Shown piece by piece: positions 1-5,208 of a DNA stretch of 53,781 bases. The notes beneath the pieces were generated by a model, which was not told where the DNA came from, did not search any database, and was given only the letters and a program-made list of their open reading frames with translations. Source of the stretch: Oscillospiraceae bacterium (GTDB taxonomy: Bacteria; Bacillota; Clostridia; UBA1212); contig SVJA01000014.1 in the NCBI GenBank assembly GCA_015069195.1, positions 1 to 53,781 of the forward strand, written 5' to 3'. The translations under genes were made by a program, and so were the position numbers. Every line of letters begins with the position of its first letter. Position 1 is the first letter of the stretch.

Positions 1-807
1 GCTACTTCTGTGGCTTCGCCGACTGCGACTGCAGGCGCTACGCCTGAAAGTACAAAGGATGCTTCTTCTGATATTATTTTAACTGCCGCTCCGACGGTTA
101 AGCCTACTGCGACTCCTGTGCCTACTACATATAAGACTCCGCAGCCGGAAGAACCTGTTAATCCTGAAGCCGGAAAAAACAGTGTTATATATCTTACTTT
201 CGATGACGGCCCGAGTAAAAGAACACCGGAGGTTCTTGATATACTCAAAAGATATAATATAAAGGCAACGTTTTTTATAATTAATTTTGATGATTCGCAG
301 ATCCCGATTCTGCAAAGGATTATTGATGAGGGGCATTCCATCGGCATACACGGATATTCACACGAATACGGAGATATATATAAATCTGAGGCGGCTTTTA
401 TGGAGAATGTTACGAAGCTCAGGAAGAAATTGAATGACAAGCTCGGATATGATACTACTATCATGCGCTTCCCCGGCGGATCTTCGAACAGGGTCAGTGC
501 AAATTACAGTACAGGTATTATGACGAAACTTGTTGTTACGGTACAGAATGAGGGTTACCAATATTTTGATTGGAATGTAGATTCCAGGGATGCCGAAAGA
601 TTTGATGCGGCGGGTATTTTGGACAGCGTAAAGAAAAATACTAAAGGTACACGCAAAACAAATATTGTTTTGATGCACGATAACGGAGACAAACATGACA
701 CGGTAAAGGCATTGCCTAATGTTATCGAGTGGGCAAAAGCAAATGGTTACAGTTTCAGCAATTTAAATGCTTATTCCGAAACCGTACATCATGGTGTATA
801 TAACTGA
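1..807 (+). CDS. Polysaccharide deacetylase (NodB domain), 5' end outside window
   Basis: The frame is open from base 1, so this is the C-terminal 268 residues of a longer protein; the GTG at 10 is only an internal codon. The first ~55 visible residues are a Thr/Pro/Ala-rich linker like that of the lipoprotein at 40139, which suggests a surface-anchored enzyme. A NodB carbohydrate esterase 4 domain follows: TFDDGPS (metal-binding Asp pair), HGYSHEY (His ligands), RFPGGSSNR, FDWNVDSRDA and LMHDNGDK with the late catalytic-type His. By family it removes N-acetyl groups from cell-wall or extracellular glycans; whether the substrate is peptidoglycan or a plant polymer cannot be told. The tsaE gene follows after about 20 bases, but the functional link is probably only positional. 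Confidence 0.9.
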   Translation, partial: ATSVASPTATAGATPESTKDASSDIILTAAPTVKPTATPVPTTYKTPQPEEPVNPEAGKNSVIYLTFDDGPSKRTPEVLDILKRYNIKATFFIINFDDSQIPILQRIIDEGHSIGIHGYSHEYGDIYKSEAAFMENVTKLRKKLNDKLGYDTTIMRFPGGSSNRVSANYSTGIMTKLVVTVQNEGYQYFDWNVDSRDAERFDAAGILDSVKKNTKGTRKTNIVLMHDNGDKHDTVKALPNVIEWAKANGYSFSNLNAYSETVHHGVYN

Positions 808-828
808 GTTTATCAGACGGAGATGTTG

Positions 829-1299
829 ATGTTTAAAAAATATGTTTTTCACACAAAGAACGAGGCGCAGACCACTGCTCTCGGCGAGGCTTTCGGTAAA
901 CTTCTGAAAGCCGGTGATGTCGTAGCTATGGACGGCGACTTGGGCGCCGGGAAAACTCATTTTACATACGGTATAGCAAAGGCTCTCGAGATAGATGAGT
1001 ATATAACAAGCCCCACATTTACGATAGTTAATGAGTACCGAAGCGGTTATATTCCGCTGTTTCACTTTGATGCGTACAGGCTATCTTCTGAGGACGAATT
1101 ATATGACATTGGATACGATGACTACCTCGTACAAAACGGTGTTATTGTCATAGAGTGGGCGATAAATACGGATGGGGTTTTTGATGATAAAACTATAAGA
1201 ATCGAAATACTCCGTATGGATGATGTTTCGGAAAGTGACAGAACGATAAATATTTTTATGGACGAGAGGGCGGATAACATTGTTGATACTGAGTATTGA
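829..1299 (+). CDS. tsaE: tRNA N6-threonylcarbamoyladenosine biosynthesis ATPase TsaE
   Basis: TsaE is the P-loop ATPase that drives the TsaB-TsaD complex in t6A37 formation on ANN-decoding tRNAs. The 156-residue product has the family length, the Walker A motif GDLGAGKT near residue 40, the TSPTFTIVNEY segment, FHFDAYRLSSEDEL and the VIEWA motif. I start at the ATG at 829 because GGAG at 819-822 lies six bases upstream; the ATG at 823 would touch that Shine-Dalgarno. The 3' end overlaps tsaB by 20 bases, so translation is probably coupled. No tsaD is visible in the window and must be elsewhere. Confidence 0.95.
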   Translation: MFKKYVFHTKNEAQTTALGEAFGKLLKAGDVVAMDGDLGAGKTHFTYGIAKALEIDEYITSPTFTIVNEYRSGYIPLFHFDAYRLSSEDELYDIGYDDYLVQNGVIVIEWAINTDGVFDDKTIRIEILRMDDVSESDRTINIFMDERADNIVDTEY

Positions 1300-2014
1300 T
1301 ACTTCCTGTGCTACTGCGGGAGTTTCTTTGACAAAGGACGGTATTGTAATAAGCGAAATATCTGTAAAAGACAAAAATACACACTCGGTAAAGTTGATGC
1401 CTGCCATTGAAATGTTATTCAAGAATGTGGTTATGTCTGTATCAGATATTGACGCAGTCGCCGTTGTAAACGGTCCCGGTTCATATACCGGTCTTAGAAT
1501 AGGTGTATCTGCAGCAAAAGCGATTGCATATTCTGCTGATGTTCCCGTTATAGGTGTAAATACACTTGATTACCTTGCTAAGTCGGCGTTCACTATTGGT
1601 GATGAATATGTTTGCTCTGTGATAGATGCCAGAAATACGCATGTATATTACGGTTTGTATAAGAGTACTATCGTCAATGGTAAAAGGGTTTTGTCGCTTA
1701 TAGATGATTACGGTGCTATGCCGTCTGAGGAGCTTTGCCAAAAAATAAAAGCATTTGAAGCGGGAAAGATAGTTTTTGTCGGTGACGGTGTTTTGGCAAA
1801 CAGAGAGATATATAGTGATTTGCTAGGAGACTGTTATGTAGAAGTTGACAACGGTCTGATGCTCGGTCGTATTTCACAAGCTGCGGCTATTGCCGAGGAA
1901 ATATATCTGAAAGAAAAAGATTTAAAGAAATTTACTGCTACAGAGCTGGATGTATATTATCTGAGAACTCCGAGAATTTCGACACCGAAAAATAAAAATA
2001 CTGCGGAAGGATAA
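1280..2014 (+). CDS. tsaB: tRNA threonylcarbamoyladenosine scaffold protein TsaB
   Basis: TsaB (YeaZ) is the non-catalytic ASKHA-fold partner that holds TsaD and TsaE together for t6A synthesis. The 244-residue product begins with the phosphate-1-like LSIDTSCATAGVSL and contains the diagnostic NGPGSYTGLRIG segment near residue 65, followed by AKAIAYSADVPVIGV. The start is a TTG at 1280 behind GAGAGGG at 1264-1270, inside the end of tsaE; the TTG at 1283 is an equally possible start. The product is slightly longer than average at the C-terminus, which is Lys/Thr/Pro-rich. It sits in the classic tsaE-tsaB-rimI order. Confidence 0.95.
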   Translation: MLILSIDTSCATAGVSLTKDGIVISEISVKDKNTHSVKLMPAIEMLFKNVVMSVSDIDAVAVVNGPGSYTGLRIGVSAAKAIAYSADVPVIGVNTLDYLAKSAFTIGDEYVCSVIDARNTHVYYGLYKSTIVNGKRVLSLIDDYGAMPSEELCQKIKAFEAGKIVFVGDGVLANREIYSDLLGDCYVEVDNGLMLGRISQAAAIAEEIYLKEKDLKKFTATELDVYYLRTPRISTPKNKNTAEG

Positions 2015-2025
2015 CCGATATATTT

Positions 2026-2472
2026 ATGGAAAATATAAAGTATGTAAAACTGAATATTTCTCACTCCGAAGATATCCAAAGAATAGAAGAACTCTGTTTT
2101 AAAGATCCGTGGTCGATTGTTTCGGTGGCGAATGAACTGAAAAACAAAAATTCGTTCTACATCGGTATTGTTGATACCAATGTAGATATTTTAGTCGGTT
2201 ATGCAGTGTTCAGACATATAATTGACGAGGTGGAGGTTTTGCGCGTTGCCGTACGTCCCGAATACAGACGGAACGGTTTTGCCGCTAAGATGATAAAAAA
2301 ACTTGAGTCTGAGTGGCTTGATTACGATATTGAATATGCACGTCTCGAAGTACGGGAAGGTAATTTTGCCGCAAGAGGACTTTACGAATCGTTGGGTTTT
2401 GTTCCGGAATTTATACGAAAAGGTTATTACAGTGACGGCGAGAATGCTGTTTTGATGAAGAAAACATATTGA
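2026..2472 (+). CDS. rimI: Ribosomal protein S18-alanine N-acetyltransferase RimI
   Basis: A 148-residue GNAT acetyltransferase. The acetyl-CoA loop reads VLRVAVRPEYRRNGFAAKMI (about residues 65-84, the R/Q-x-x-G-x-G/A type), preceded by the β4 strand and followed by LEVREGNFAARGLYESLGF, the RimI signature with N and Y positioned to contact substrate. By family it acetylates the N-terminal Ala of S18. Its place directly after tsaB supports RimI over a generic GNAT. The best Shine-Dalgarno (GGAAGG, 2005-2010) is 15 bases from the ATG, longer than ideal, so the N-terminus carries slight uncertainty. Confidence 0.92.
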   Translation: MENIKYVKLNISHSEDIQRIEELCFKDPWSIVSVANELKNKNSFYIGIVDTNVDILVGYAVFRHIIDEVEVLRVAVRPEYRRNGFAAKMIKKLESEWLDYDIEYARLEVREGNFAARGLYESLGFVPEFIRKGYYSDGENAVLMKKTY

Positions 2473-2489
2473 CTTTGCGGAGGTAATTT

Positions 2490-3620
2490 GTGGGAAGTGC
2501 GATCATTTATTCAAAAAAATTAAACGGTAAAGTAATTGCAAGACCGTGTCACGAAACCGGTAATACAGCAATGTTTTTTGCAATGCTTTCTAAGAAACCT
2601 TGCAAAATCGAAAATCTTACCTTTGATGATACGGCCCGCTTTTTACTTGTGGCGGCAGAAGAGGCGGGAATTGTTGCGGAGAAAACCGACAACAGTGTTT
2701 CTTTCACCGGTTCTGATGAGCCGATTGAGCTTTATTACAGATTGACAGAGGGACTTTTTGATGACTATACAGAGATACCTCATACGTTGGTTCCCGGAGA
2801 TTACTTTTTGAGAAGTGACGTTCCCGTTGAGATGCTTATCGGCTTGATTGCGGGCCTTGCAGTGTTGGACGGTGATTCTCATATAGTTCTTACAAATACA
2901 CCGGAGCAAATAAGACGTATAGAGCTTGCGCTTCACATACTAGGTCGTTTCGGTGTGCTTATAGAGATTGCAAACGGAGGAACCGATTATCACATAACAG
3001 GCGGTCAACCACTCGTTGCAGATGTATTTGTTAACGAATCCGATTGGAAACAGGCGGCTTTTTATCTTCTTGCCGATGTAATCGGTGCAAATATAACTGT
3101 AAAAGGCCTTCACGAAAAAACAATACAAAGCGGAATTTTGGTACTGAATCCTTTGAAACGAATGGGTGCAAGATTTACGGATACTGCCGACGGAATGATA
3201 ACACACGTAAATTACGACGGATTATTTGCGGTAAATGCAGATGCTTTTGAATGTCCTGAAATGCTTCCTGTAGTAATGGCGGCGGCAACTGTTGCAGACG
3301 GAACTACTGTTATAAAAGAATTCAACGGTCTTGATACAAAGGCGTATGAAACTGCAGTAAATATGCGTGATGAACTGGTAAAACTCGGTGCAAACATTGT
3401 TATCAATGACAACAGTATGATAATAACCGGTAAAAAGAAAATAAGAGGAGGTGCGCGAGTATCCGGTCACGGTGATATAGTAAGTTCACTTGCGTTACTT
3501 GCTCTTGCGGTTCGATGTGAAAAAGCGCTTATTATTAATGACTTTGAAAAGTTTGAAGAAATGTATCCCGGATTTATAGCAGAGTATAAAGAACTCGGCG
3601 GTTGTATCGGAAACTTTTAA
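2490..3620 (+). CDS. Degenerate EPSP-synthase (AroA)-like protein, probably not catalytic
   Basis: Starts at GTG 2490 with GGAGG at 2479-2483. The 376 residues align end to end with clostridial AroA: VPGDYFLRSDVP, then ESDWKQAAFYLLADVIG, LKRMGA, GTTVIKEFNGL and the C-terminal YPGFIAEYKELGG. Yet the active site appears lost. The PxSKSxSxR segment reads PCHETGNTAM; about 45 residues carrying the NAGTAMR and RPM motifs are missing before VPGDYF; SSQ reads PVE; the catalytic Asp position is Glu (PEMLP); DHR-type residues read GDI; and the C-terminal Lys is absent. It is therefore likely a pseudoenzyme or an enzyme of different specificity, although automatic annotation would probably name it aroA. 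It is the last gene of the t6A-rimI operon, before a strong terminator. No other shikimate gene is nearby. Confidence 0.75.
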   Translation: MGSAIIYSKKLNGKVIARPCHETGNTAMFFAMLSKKPCKIENLTFDDTARFLLVAAEEAGIVAEKTDNSVSFTGSDEPIELYYRLTEGLFDDYTEIPHTLVPGDYFLRSDVPVEMLIGLIAGLAVLDGDSHIVLTNTPEQIRRIELALHILGRFGVLIEIANGGTDYHITGGQPLVADVFVNESDWKQAAFYLLADVIGANITVKGLHEKTIQSGILVLNPLKRMGARFTDTADGMITHVNYDGLFAVNADAFECPEMLPVVMAAATVADGTTVIKEFNGLDTKAYETAVNMRDELVKLGANIVINDNSMIITGKKKIRGGARVSGHGDIVSSLALLALAVRCEKALIINDFEKFEEMYPGFIAEYKELGGCIGNF

Positions 3621-3634
3621 AAGAACCCGGGAGA

Positions 3635-3701
3635 GTCAACCAAAATTCCTGGTTTAGGCTTTTGCCTAAACCAGGAATTTTGGTTGGCACTCCGTTTTTT
3701 T
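3635..3701 (+). terminator. Strong intrinsic terminator with 25-bp stem
   Basis: A perfect 23-bp inverted repeat (3637-3659 and 3664-3686), extended by G-C and U·G pairs, closes a four-base T loop. T7 follows at 3695-3701. It ends the tsaE-tsaB-rimI-aroA-like operon and faces the end of the minus-strand DUF308 gene, so it may stop both transcripts. Confidence 0.9.
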
Positions 3702-3723
3702 CGGGTATTATAGAGAGTGTTTT

Positions 3724-4314
3724 TTAGTCTGCCAGTTCGTTTGTATCCTTTTTTTCTGCAACTTCCGCCGGCGCCGGATTACCTTTCTTTTCAAATATGA
3801 TGGTGACGATGTCGAGAATAGATTCTGCAATGAGAACTATGCCTGCAAAGATCCAGAGTCCTGCTGTTGTTGCGAAAGGATTATTGATAATGATGACAGC
3901 GCAGATTATGGAAACCGCTGCACTGATAAGTGCCAAAAACCATTTTTTGTTTCTCTTGCGGAGCATATCACATGTGAGTTGTACTTTGCTGAGACCGGTT
4001 ACAAGAATAACTACGCCGTATATGAGAGTGAGTGCTGATACTGCCGCCACAATCCAACCAGCCTTTATAACACAGAATATTCCGGCGAGCAATGCCAAGA
4101 GACCTATTGTGAGATATTGACTGCCTGCGGCTTCTTCTACGTTTGTTTTGAAGTATTTTACTGCATTTATGAGTCCGAGAAGGATGAGTATTGCACCTGC
4201 TGCAATGATGATACCTTTAGCAAATTCTACGGGCTTCATAAGTAACAAAACACCTACAAGAATTTCGAATAAGCATAAAATGATGCTGCTGAGACTGTTC
4301 TTAAGTTTTTTCAT
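3724..4314 (-). CDS. DUF308 (HdeD-like) integral membrane protein
   Basis: A 196-residue protein with six hydrophobic segments in three pairs of roughly 20 residues, for example LSSIILCLFEILVGVLLLM and GIIIAAGAILILLGLI, each pair repeating the short-loop DUF308 pattern, with a charged C-terminal tail (EKKGNPAPAEVAEKK). The family function is unknown; E. coli HdeD is linked to acid stress. The start is set by GGAGGA just upstream of the ATG. It lies downstream of the NYN gene on the same strand with about 70 bases between and converges on the tsaE operon. Confidence 0.85.
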   Translation of the reverse strand: MKKLKNSLSSIILCLFEILVGVLLLMKPVEFAKGIIIAAGAILILLGLINAVKYFKTNVEEAAGSQYLTIGLLALLAGIFCVIKAGWIVAAVSALTLIYGVVILVTGLSKVQLTCDMLRKRNKKWFLALISAAVSIICAVIIINNPFATTAGLWIFAGIVLIAESILDIVTIIFEKKGNPAPAEVAEKKDTNELAD

Positions 4315-4383
4315 AATGTCCTCCGAATAAATTTAGTGTTGTACAAACCTTGTTAAGAGAAAACAGATTTTGTTACGGTATTG

Positions 4384-5208
4384 TCAGTTGTTGAAAATTG
4401 AAGTTTTTAACCAAAGTCCGTCCTTTTCTATCAAAGTCCAGTTCGGTTCTAATATTCGTATCTGTTCATGCCGGCGGATATTCTTTGTAAGTTGTGTTAT
4501 GTAGCCGTCATTTATAAGCTCCGATAAAAGTTGTTTTATAGTGTCGAATTCTACATCGTGCATACTTGCAACCGTTTCTGCGGTTTTGCGGAAAGTAGGG
4601 TAGATGTCACGTTGCTCTTTAATGTTTTTCAGATATGTGAAAAGCATATTGTAATAGGGCGCGTTCAGTTCGAACTCAAGTGGGATTTCTCTTACCCATG
4701 ATACGTTTTTTATAAGTGTGCTGCTTATGCCGCCTTGCACACCGTAAATTCCGACTTCTTTGTGACAGAAATTTTTCAGGAAAGCGCAAACCGATGAAAA
4801 GTGACCATCACCCGTGAATATTATAAATGTGTTTATGTCCTCGCGGGAGAGTGCTTTTTGGTAAATGTTATCGAGAATGATAAAATCCGTGAAATCTTTT
4901 TTGTAGTGTGCATCCGGATTATATGTATCAATTATAGAGTTTGTCACTGTACGGATACGTTTAATTTCTTTTTCTTTATCACGAAATTTTGAAAAGTTTG
5001 CAAAGAAAATAACTTCTTTTAAGTCGCATTTTTTCTGAACTTCTCTAAGCCACATATGAATGTCAGGTTTCCGACCGTACATCTTTTCGAGTGCTATATA
5101 CCAATGCTCATAGTCGATAAATGCAATACCCATCGGCAGTTCTTTCTTTTTTGAAAAAATATTTTTAAAAGAATAAAAAAGTCCTGTGCGTTTGCTTGCT
5201 TTTGGCAT
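4384..5208 (-). CDS. NYN/LabA-type PIN-like nuclease-domain protein with winged-helix tail
   Basis: A 274-residue protein. I start at the ATG at 5208 because GGAGGTG stands five bases upstream; a longer frame to 5256 lacks a ribosome site. Residues ~25-170 form a NYN (LabA/DUF88) domain with the expected acidic positions: AFIDYEHW, then FTDFIILDNIY and FTGDGHFSSVCAFL. The family binds or cleaves RNA with Mg2+, but the target here is unknown. The C-terminal ~100 residues (YLKNIKEQRDIYPTFRKT to LLSELINDGYI) read as a winged helix, a plausible nucleic-acid-binding module. A basic stretch precedes the NYN domain (KNIFSKKKEL). No partner gene is evident; it lies downstream of the two-component system on the same strand. 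Confidence 0.8.
   Translation of the reverse strand: MPKASKRTGLFYSFKNIFSKKKELPMGIAFIDYEHWYIALEKMYGRKPDIHMWLREVQKKCDLKEVIFFANFSKFRDKEKEIKRIRTVTNSIIDTYNPDAHYKKDFTDFIILDNIYQKALSREDINTFIIFTGDGHFSSVCAFLKNFCHKEVGIYGVQGGISSTLIKNVSWVREIPLEFELNAPYYNMLFTYLKNIKEQRDIYPTFRKTAETVASMHDVEFDTIKQLLSELINDGYITQLTKNIRRHEQIRILEPNWTLIEKDGLWLKTSIFNN

Follow-up and report, generated by a model that had tools for sequence, protein, structure and literature searches.

The window, by which we mean the whole stretch of 53,781 nucleotides that was analysed, begins with five genes on the forward strand. The first (10..807), which we take from its TFDDGP motif to encode a polysaccharide-deacetylase-like protein, lies at the contig start and is perhaps cut by the contig end. 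It is followed by tsaE (823..1299; TIGR00150, 118.5 bits, cut-off 60.1), tsaB (1280..2014; TIGR03725, 148.5 bits, cut-off 69.3) and rimI (2026..2472; TIGR01575, 98.3 bits, cut-off 86.4), all three assigned because they score above the NCBIfam equivalog cut-offs. The tsa genes serve the synthesis of t6A, a modification of tRNA that occurs universally. The fifth gene (2490..3620) has a GTG start, six bases after a GGAGG ribosome-binding site (2479..2483), and a frame of 376 amino acids that is open throughout. The open reading frame list, Pfam, a residue table and a structure model together indicate that it encodes a protein that has the fold of EPSP synthase (EPSPS, AroA), the target of glyphosate, but lacks an active site and has a single helix in place of the second repeat.

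The tsaE and tsaB genes overlap, and the gaps between tsaB and rimI and between rimI and the EPSPS-like gene measure 11 and 17 nucleotides, respectively. Directly 3' of the stop codon of the EPSPS-like gene, folding and a genome-wide stem search identified a long hairpin with a U run (3625..3706, forward strand) that is probably the operon terminator (-57 kcal/mol, z -9.0, none of 200 shuffles equally stable); its stem sequence occurs only once in the genome. The hairpin is nearly perfect and very long, an unusual strength for a terminator. Promoter-like motifs show no excess in window positions 1-4400 (8 found versus 10.7 expected). From the overlap, the short gaps and the hairpin with its U run, one can reasonably infer that the EPSPS-like gene is cotranscribed with tsaE-tsaB-rimI. 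A preliminary description of this DNA had already stated as much; the three genes do lie directly upstream, and the unity of the transcript is read from the gaps and the hairpin.

Substrate site and predicted fold

The EPSPS-like protein passes the gathering cut-off of Pfam PF00275 (101.2 bits versus 22.8) over residues 128-363, but with 109.1 bits it falls below the cut-off of the NCBIfam aroA model TIGR01356 (287.25). The warning in the preliminary description that automatic pipelines would label the gene aroA thus applies to the Pfam cut-off, but not to the NCBIfam one. Residues 1-95 alone yield 9.2 bits with the AroA profile. The MurA model TIGR01072 gives 53.6 bits, far under its cut-off of 392.7; although MurA belongs to the same fold class, the protein scores lower with this model than with the AroA model.

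As substrate site we considered 23 positions of E. coli AroA, including K22, S23, R27, R100, R124, SSQ, D313, E341, R344, H385, R386 and K411. Only one of the 23, K340, is retained. K22, S23, R27, S169-S170-Q171, D313 (to E), E341, R344, H385, R386 and K411 are altered, and the stretch N94-R100 (E. coli AroA numbering) is deleted. Among the 58 comparison AroAs, which are those from the loci fetched up to that point, the invariant site positions are intact in 56, and in the other two the contig ends before the first three are reached; the AroAs of the window protein's own family also retain the substrate-site residues. The loss of the active site, including the change of the catalytic Asp to Glu, was therefore described correctly from the start, but the loss goes beyond point changes, as a whole repeat is absent from the model.

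The AlphaFold model (pLDDT 81.7, pTM 0.74), which like the model of a relative described below rests on a seven-row alignment, has the EPSPS fold. Its best structural matches are open EPSP synthases (7pxy, Z 33.5, rmsd 3.0, 361 aligned; Foldseek E 1.6e-24), and it also resembles unliganded MurA (1dlg, Z 30.4, rmsd 5.7, 355 aligned). The claim that the protein aligns with EPSP synthase along its length holds for the predicted fold, in which model residues 1-372 span 7pxy, but the sequence similarity is weak and is recognisable in the last two thirds of the protein. The EPSPS fold consists of six repeats. The strands and helices of the model, read along the sequence, form five beta-alpha-beta-alpha-beta-beta units; where repeat 2 would stand, the model has a single helix (residues 78-89) and a segment of low confidence. 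In the models the protein is thus an EPSPS fold with five of the six repeats.

A separate AroA is encoded in the same genome, between aroB and aroC, in contrast to the EPSPS-like gene with its place in the tsaE-tsaB-rimI block (the neighbours of this aroA were named by eye, aroC also by PF01264). This second AroA, whose presence had been proposed as a check, retains all site residues and reaches 304.5 bits with the NCBIfam model, above the cut-off.

The gene after rimI in related genomes

In a protein search, relatives match the window protein at only about 30% and are mostly AroAs, but genus g3, which belongs to the same family, also gave weak secondary matches, and these adjoin tsaB. We fetched 20 of the 25 TsaB loci from other genomes (those of G023, G024, G025, G027 and G028 were left out). 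Fourteen of the fetched loci are from outside the family; one of these (L080) ends at rimI and was excluded, which leaves 13 readable loci. Within the family, an EPSPS-like gene lies directly after rimI in genomes G003, G004, G006, G007 and G008, with frames of 422-521 amino acids, and these five are all the fetched family loci whose sequence continues past rimI. The sixth family locus, in G005, ends at tsaB, and the EPSPS-like gene of this genome is found on another contig (L089), directly after a rimI-like fragment. Counting the window, the gene thus follows rimI in seven of seven readable family loci versus none of the 13 readable loci of neighbouring families, which answers the earlier proposal to look for conservation beside tsaB in relatives. 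In genomes G001 and G002 (69 and 76% complete) TsaB matches do not rise above the level of TsaD-like ones, so that the readable family genomes are seven of nine. Homologs of the deacetylase-like gene precede tsaE in all six family loci (E 1e-55 to 1e-61), and the conserved unit is therefore a block of five genes.

A single-sequence scan of a wider contig set with the window protein recovered no relative; a scan with five of the relatives, hereafter cousins, recovered six loci, in genomes G003-G008. The family is small and made up of gut bacteria. Those of its members that have a name are Clostridia assembled from metagenomes, of which three come from goat or yak rumen and two bear the label Mageeibacillus sp.; the viral contigs scanned contained no family member. 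When a seven-row profile was run against 391 genomes of the class, scores above 300 bits occurred only in three family genomes, and the next best match (146 bits) begins at profile position 163 and is AroA-like in appearance. This restriction to the family suggests that the role of the protein would be a lineage-specific addition, and not core t6A synthesis or S18 acetylation. The place after rimI may be inherited rather than functional.

The cousins have lost the substrate site too. In the five that were tabulated, 1-4 of the 23 positions agree with AroA (hand count), and K22, R27, R100, R124, E341 and R386 are retained in none. The NCBIfam aroA model gives 26-43 bits in all five scanned, far below its cut-off; TsaE, TsaB and RimI of one cousin genome score above theirs. 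Repeat 2 is replaced in the cousins by 34-137 D/E-rich residues, partly disordered in the one cousin that was modelled (pLDDT 84.1, residues 109-138 under 50; Z 25.6 to 9uow, rmsd 3.6, 363 aligned), so that the same repeat is absent from both models. If the models are right, this suggests that one unit of the six can be lost without abolishing folding. The window protein and six cousins are acidic, with pI 4.6-4.9 and net charges of -17 to -26; the net charges of six AroAs compared range from +1 to -10.

The closest pair of cousins (85% identical, dS 1.1) has a dN/dS of 0.08, and the other computable pairs lie between 0.12 and 0.31 (13 of 15 pairs were computable, two were saturated). These low ratios reveal that the cousins, six relatives in all, are under purifying selection and are not decaying. 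The six pairs that include the window gene are all saturated in dS, so the ratios speak for the cousins.

Descent and possible role of the EPSPS-like protein

The window gene is most likely the same gene as that of the cousins and descended with the block, a conclusion we draw because of the common genomic place. The sequences themselves speak less clearly. With a profile of the six cousins the window protein scores 76.7 bits and the best ordinary AroAs 80-83; with an AroA profile it scores 188 bits and the cousins 43-68. In the maximum-likelihood tree one branch has all seven on the same side; it is weakly supported (56/56), and the tree came with a warning about long branches. Cousin-typical residues are slightly overrepresented in the window protein, at 5 of 104 positions (4.8%; mean 1.6% and maximum 7.1% in 57 AroAs), and it has 27% of the rare residues in common with the cousins (AroAs: mean 15%, maximum 28%). 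The window protein is 24-26% identical to two cousins, and the figures for RimI (28-32%) and TsaB (33-38%) between the same genomes are similar, which is what joint descent of the block would predict. An alternative explanation is that two AroA-derived genes arrived after rimI separately, one in the lineage of the window and one in that of the cousins. The gap between the AroA-profile scores and the weak branch would fit such a history; however, we regard it as improbable, since it would have to produce twice the same position in the five-gene block, present in all readable loci of the family and in none of those outside it, the same missing repeat and the same acidity. Still less probable is that the window gene is an aroA pseudogene decaying in its own genome. 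Nearly all conserved residues are gone, as one would expect of a pseudogene, but 376 open codons, a good ribosome-binding site, a confidently predicted fold and the purifying selection in the cousins argue against decay. Furthermore, a grouping of the window protein with the AroA of its own family is rejected (p-AU 0.0006), so that the gene is apparently not a recent copy.

Lacking the substrate site and one repeat, the window protein is very unlikely to make EPSP, judging from the sequence and the model. That it is a divergent but working EPSP synthase is hardly credible: it has the fold, but one remaining site position, the missing repeat 2 and the intact AroA elsewhere in the genome all contradict this reading. 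An enzyme repurposed for a different substrate, with a new active site in the EPSPS cleft, deserves more thought, though it too seems unlikely. The fold and the interdomain cleft are retained, and many residues are invariant among five cousins and peculiar to them. However, the residues invariant in all seven proteins are, by eye, mostly glycines, hydrophobics or residues common in AroA, no common polar set is apparent among them, and in the models one domain lacks a whole repeat.

The gene keeps its place and is under selection in the cousins, which speaks for some function, and we are largely confident that it encodes a protein maintained by selection and other than an EPSP synthase. The explanation we prefer, and consider likely, is that it belongs to a set of EPSP synthase paralogs confined to this family, which do not form EPSP and serve in a non-catalytic binding role. 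The EPSPS-like protein would be made from the transcript of the deacetylase-like gene, tsaE, tsaB and rimI and would act as a non-catalytic binding protein, whose target would most likely be an operon product or the translation apparatus served by RimI and t6A. The acidity makes RNA or DNA an improbable ligand and favours contacts with protein; an open, acidic protein of two domains would also suit binding to another protein. That the partner is one of the operon products is a tentative suggestion drawn from the gene order. A narrower and more speculative version, which we hold to be rather unlikely, would make the protein a lineage-specific extra t6A/RimI factor, built on an EPSPS scaffold of five repeats, whose acidic surface serves to regulate or assemble TsaB-TsaD-TsaE or RimI. 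The preliminary description had regarded the protein as a pseudoenzyme recruited to another role. The fold without a site, the intact AroA elsewhere, the conserved place after rimI and the purifying selection in six relatives agree with this proposal, whereas the new role and an action on the operon partners would be interpretation. The EPSPS fold resembles that of RNA 3'-phosphate cyclase; given the acidity, we rated RNA binding low.

In the full text of the open-licence literature we found no bacterial non-catalytic EPSPS, whether described as a pseudoenzyme or as an inactive paralog, and the literature matches on the operon neighbours, in the portions available, do not name an EPSPS-like gene beside them. 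Natural non-catalytic uses of this fold in bacteria thus seem hardly described. PtrEPSP-TF of Populus is reported in a review (PMC8416159) as a copy of EPSP synthase whose role lies outside metabolism, but it is a plant transcriptional repressor that arose by the addition of an N-terminal helix-turn-helix. The bacterial protein, in contrast, has lost parts, and Pfam and NCBIfam scans detect no added domain. OSH18 (4n3p), a de novo designed serine hydrolase, also puts an EPSPS-like fold to other use, but it is a laboratory design and not natural. What is new here is the conservation of the EPSPS-like gene after rimI. The case offers seven members, a fixed genomic place and, in the cousins, measurable selection, and the adjacency to tsaB and rimI opens a direct test of interaction.

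Other AroA and MurA genes in the genomes

The AroA of the window's own genome (L003, 1486-2721) has DSKSEAHR in place of the usual PxSKS, with the Pro replaced and the other site residues intact. The AroA of G006 (L141, a frame of 516 amino acids) contains extra sequence between two matched halves. In two genomes, G005 and G008, a contig ends beside aroC and aroA is truncated or lacking there; because aroA falls at the contig end, these genomes are no evidence that the gene is absent. The apparent lack of AroA in G008 was set aside as counter-evidence for this reason: its aroC lies 34 bases from the contig end, where aroA would follow. Three AroA-like matches in one genus (G295:C21:27842-28657, G261:C4:49534-50349 and G221:C1:19091-19906) contain one in-frame TGA each, probably where the alignment overruns the stop codon.

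The window's own genome also contains two full MurAs and a third murA that is split. The halves of the latter lie on contig C18 on opposite strands, about 30 kb apart (L132, 3312-4289, minus; L133, 3220-3831, plus), and the break point is the catalytic-loop motif HPGGC. A stretch of 21 bases is common to both halves, with 19 matches counted by eye. The C half lacks an ATG, GTG or TTG before the motif; an ATA after GGAGG is a possible start. The same murA is split in G001, G013, G012 and G014, which represent three families of the order, and in the N half of G014 the Cys is changed to Tyr; a further murA is intact in f2 genomes, G009 and G021 among them. The halves have dN/dS values of 0.03-0.05 in three of four comparisons, the fourth being saturated. 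The split gene could encode a two-chain MurA, or a DNA inversion could rejoin the halves. It is possibly of more interest than the EPSPS-like gene.
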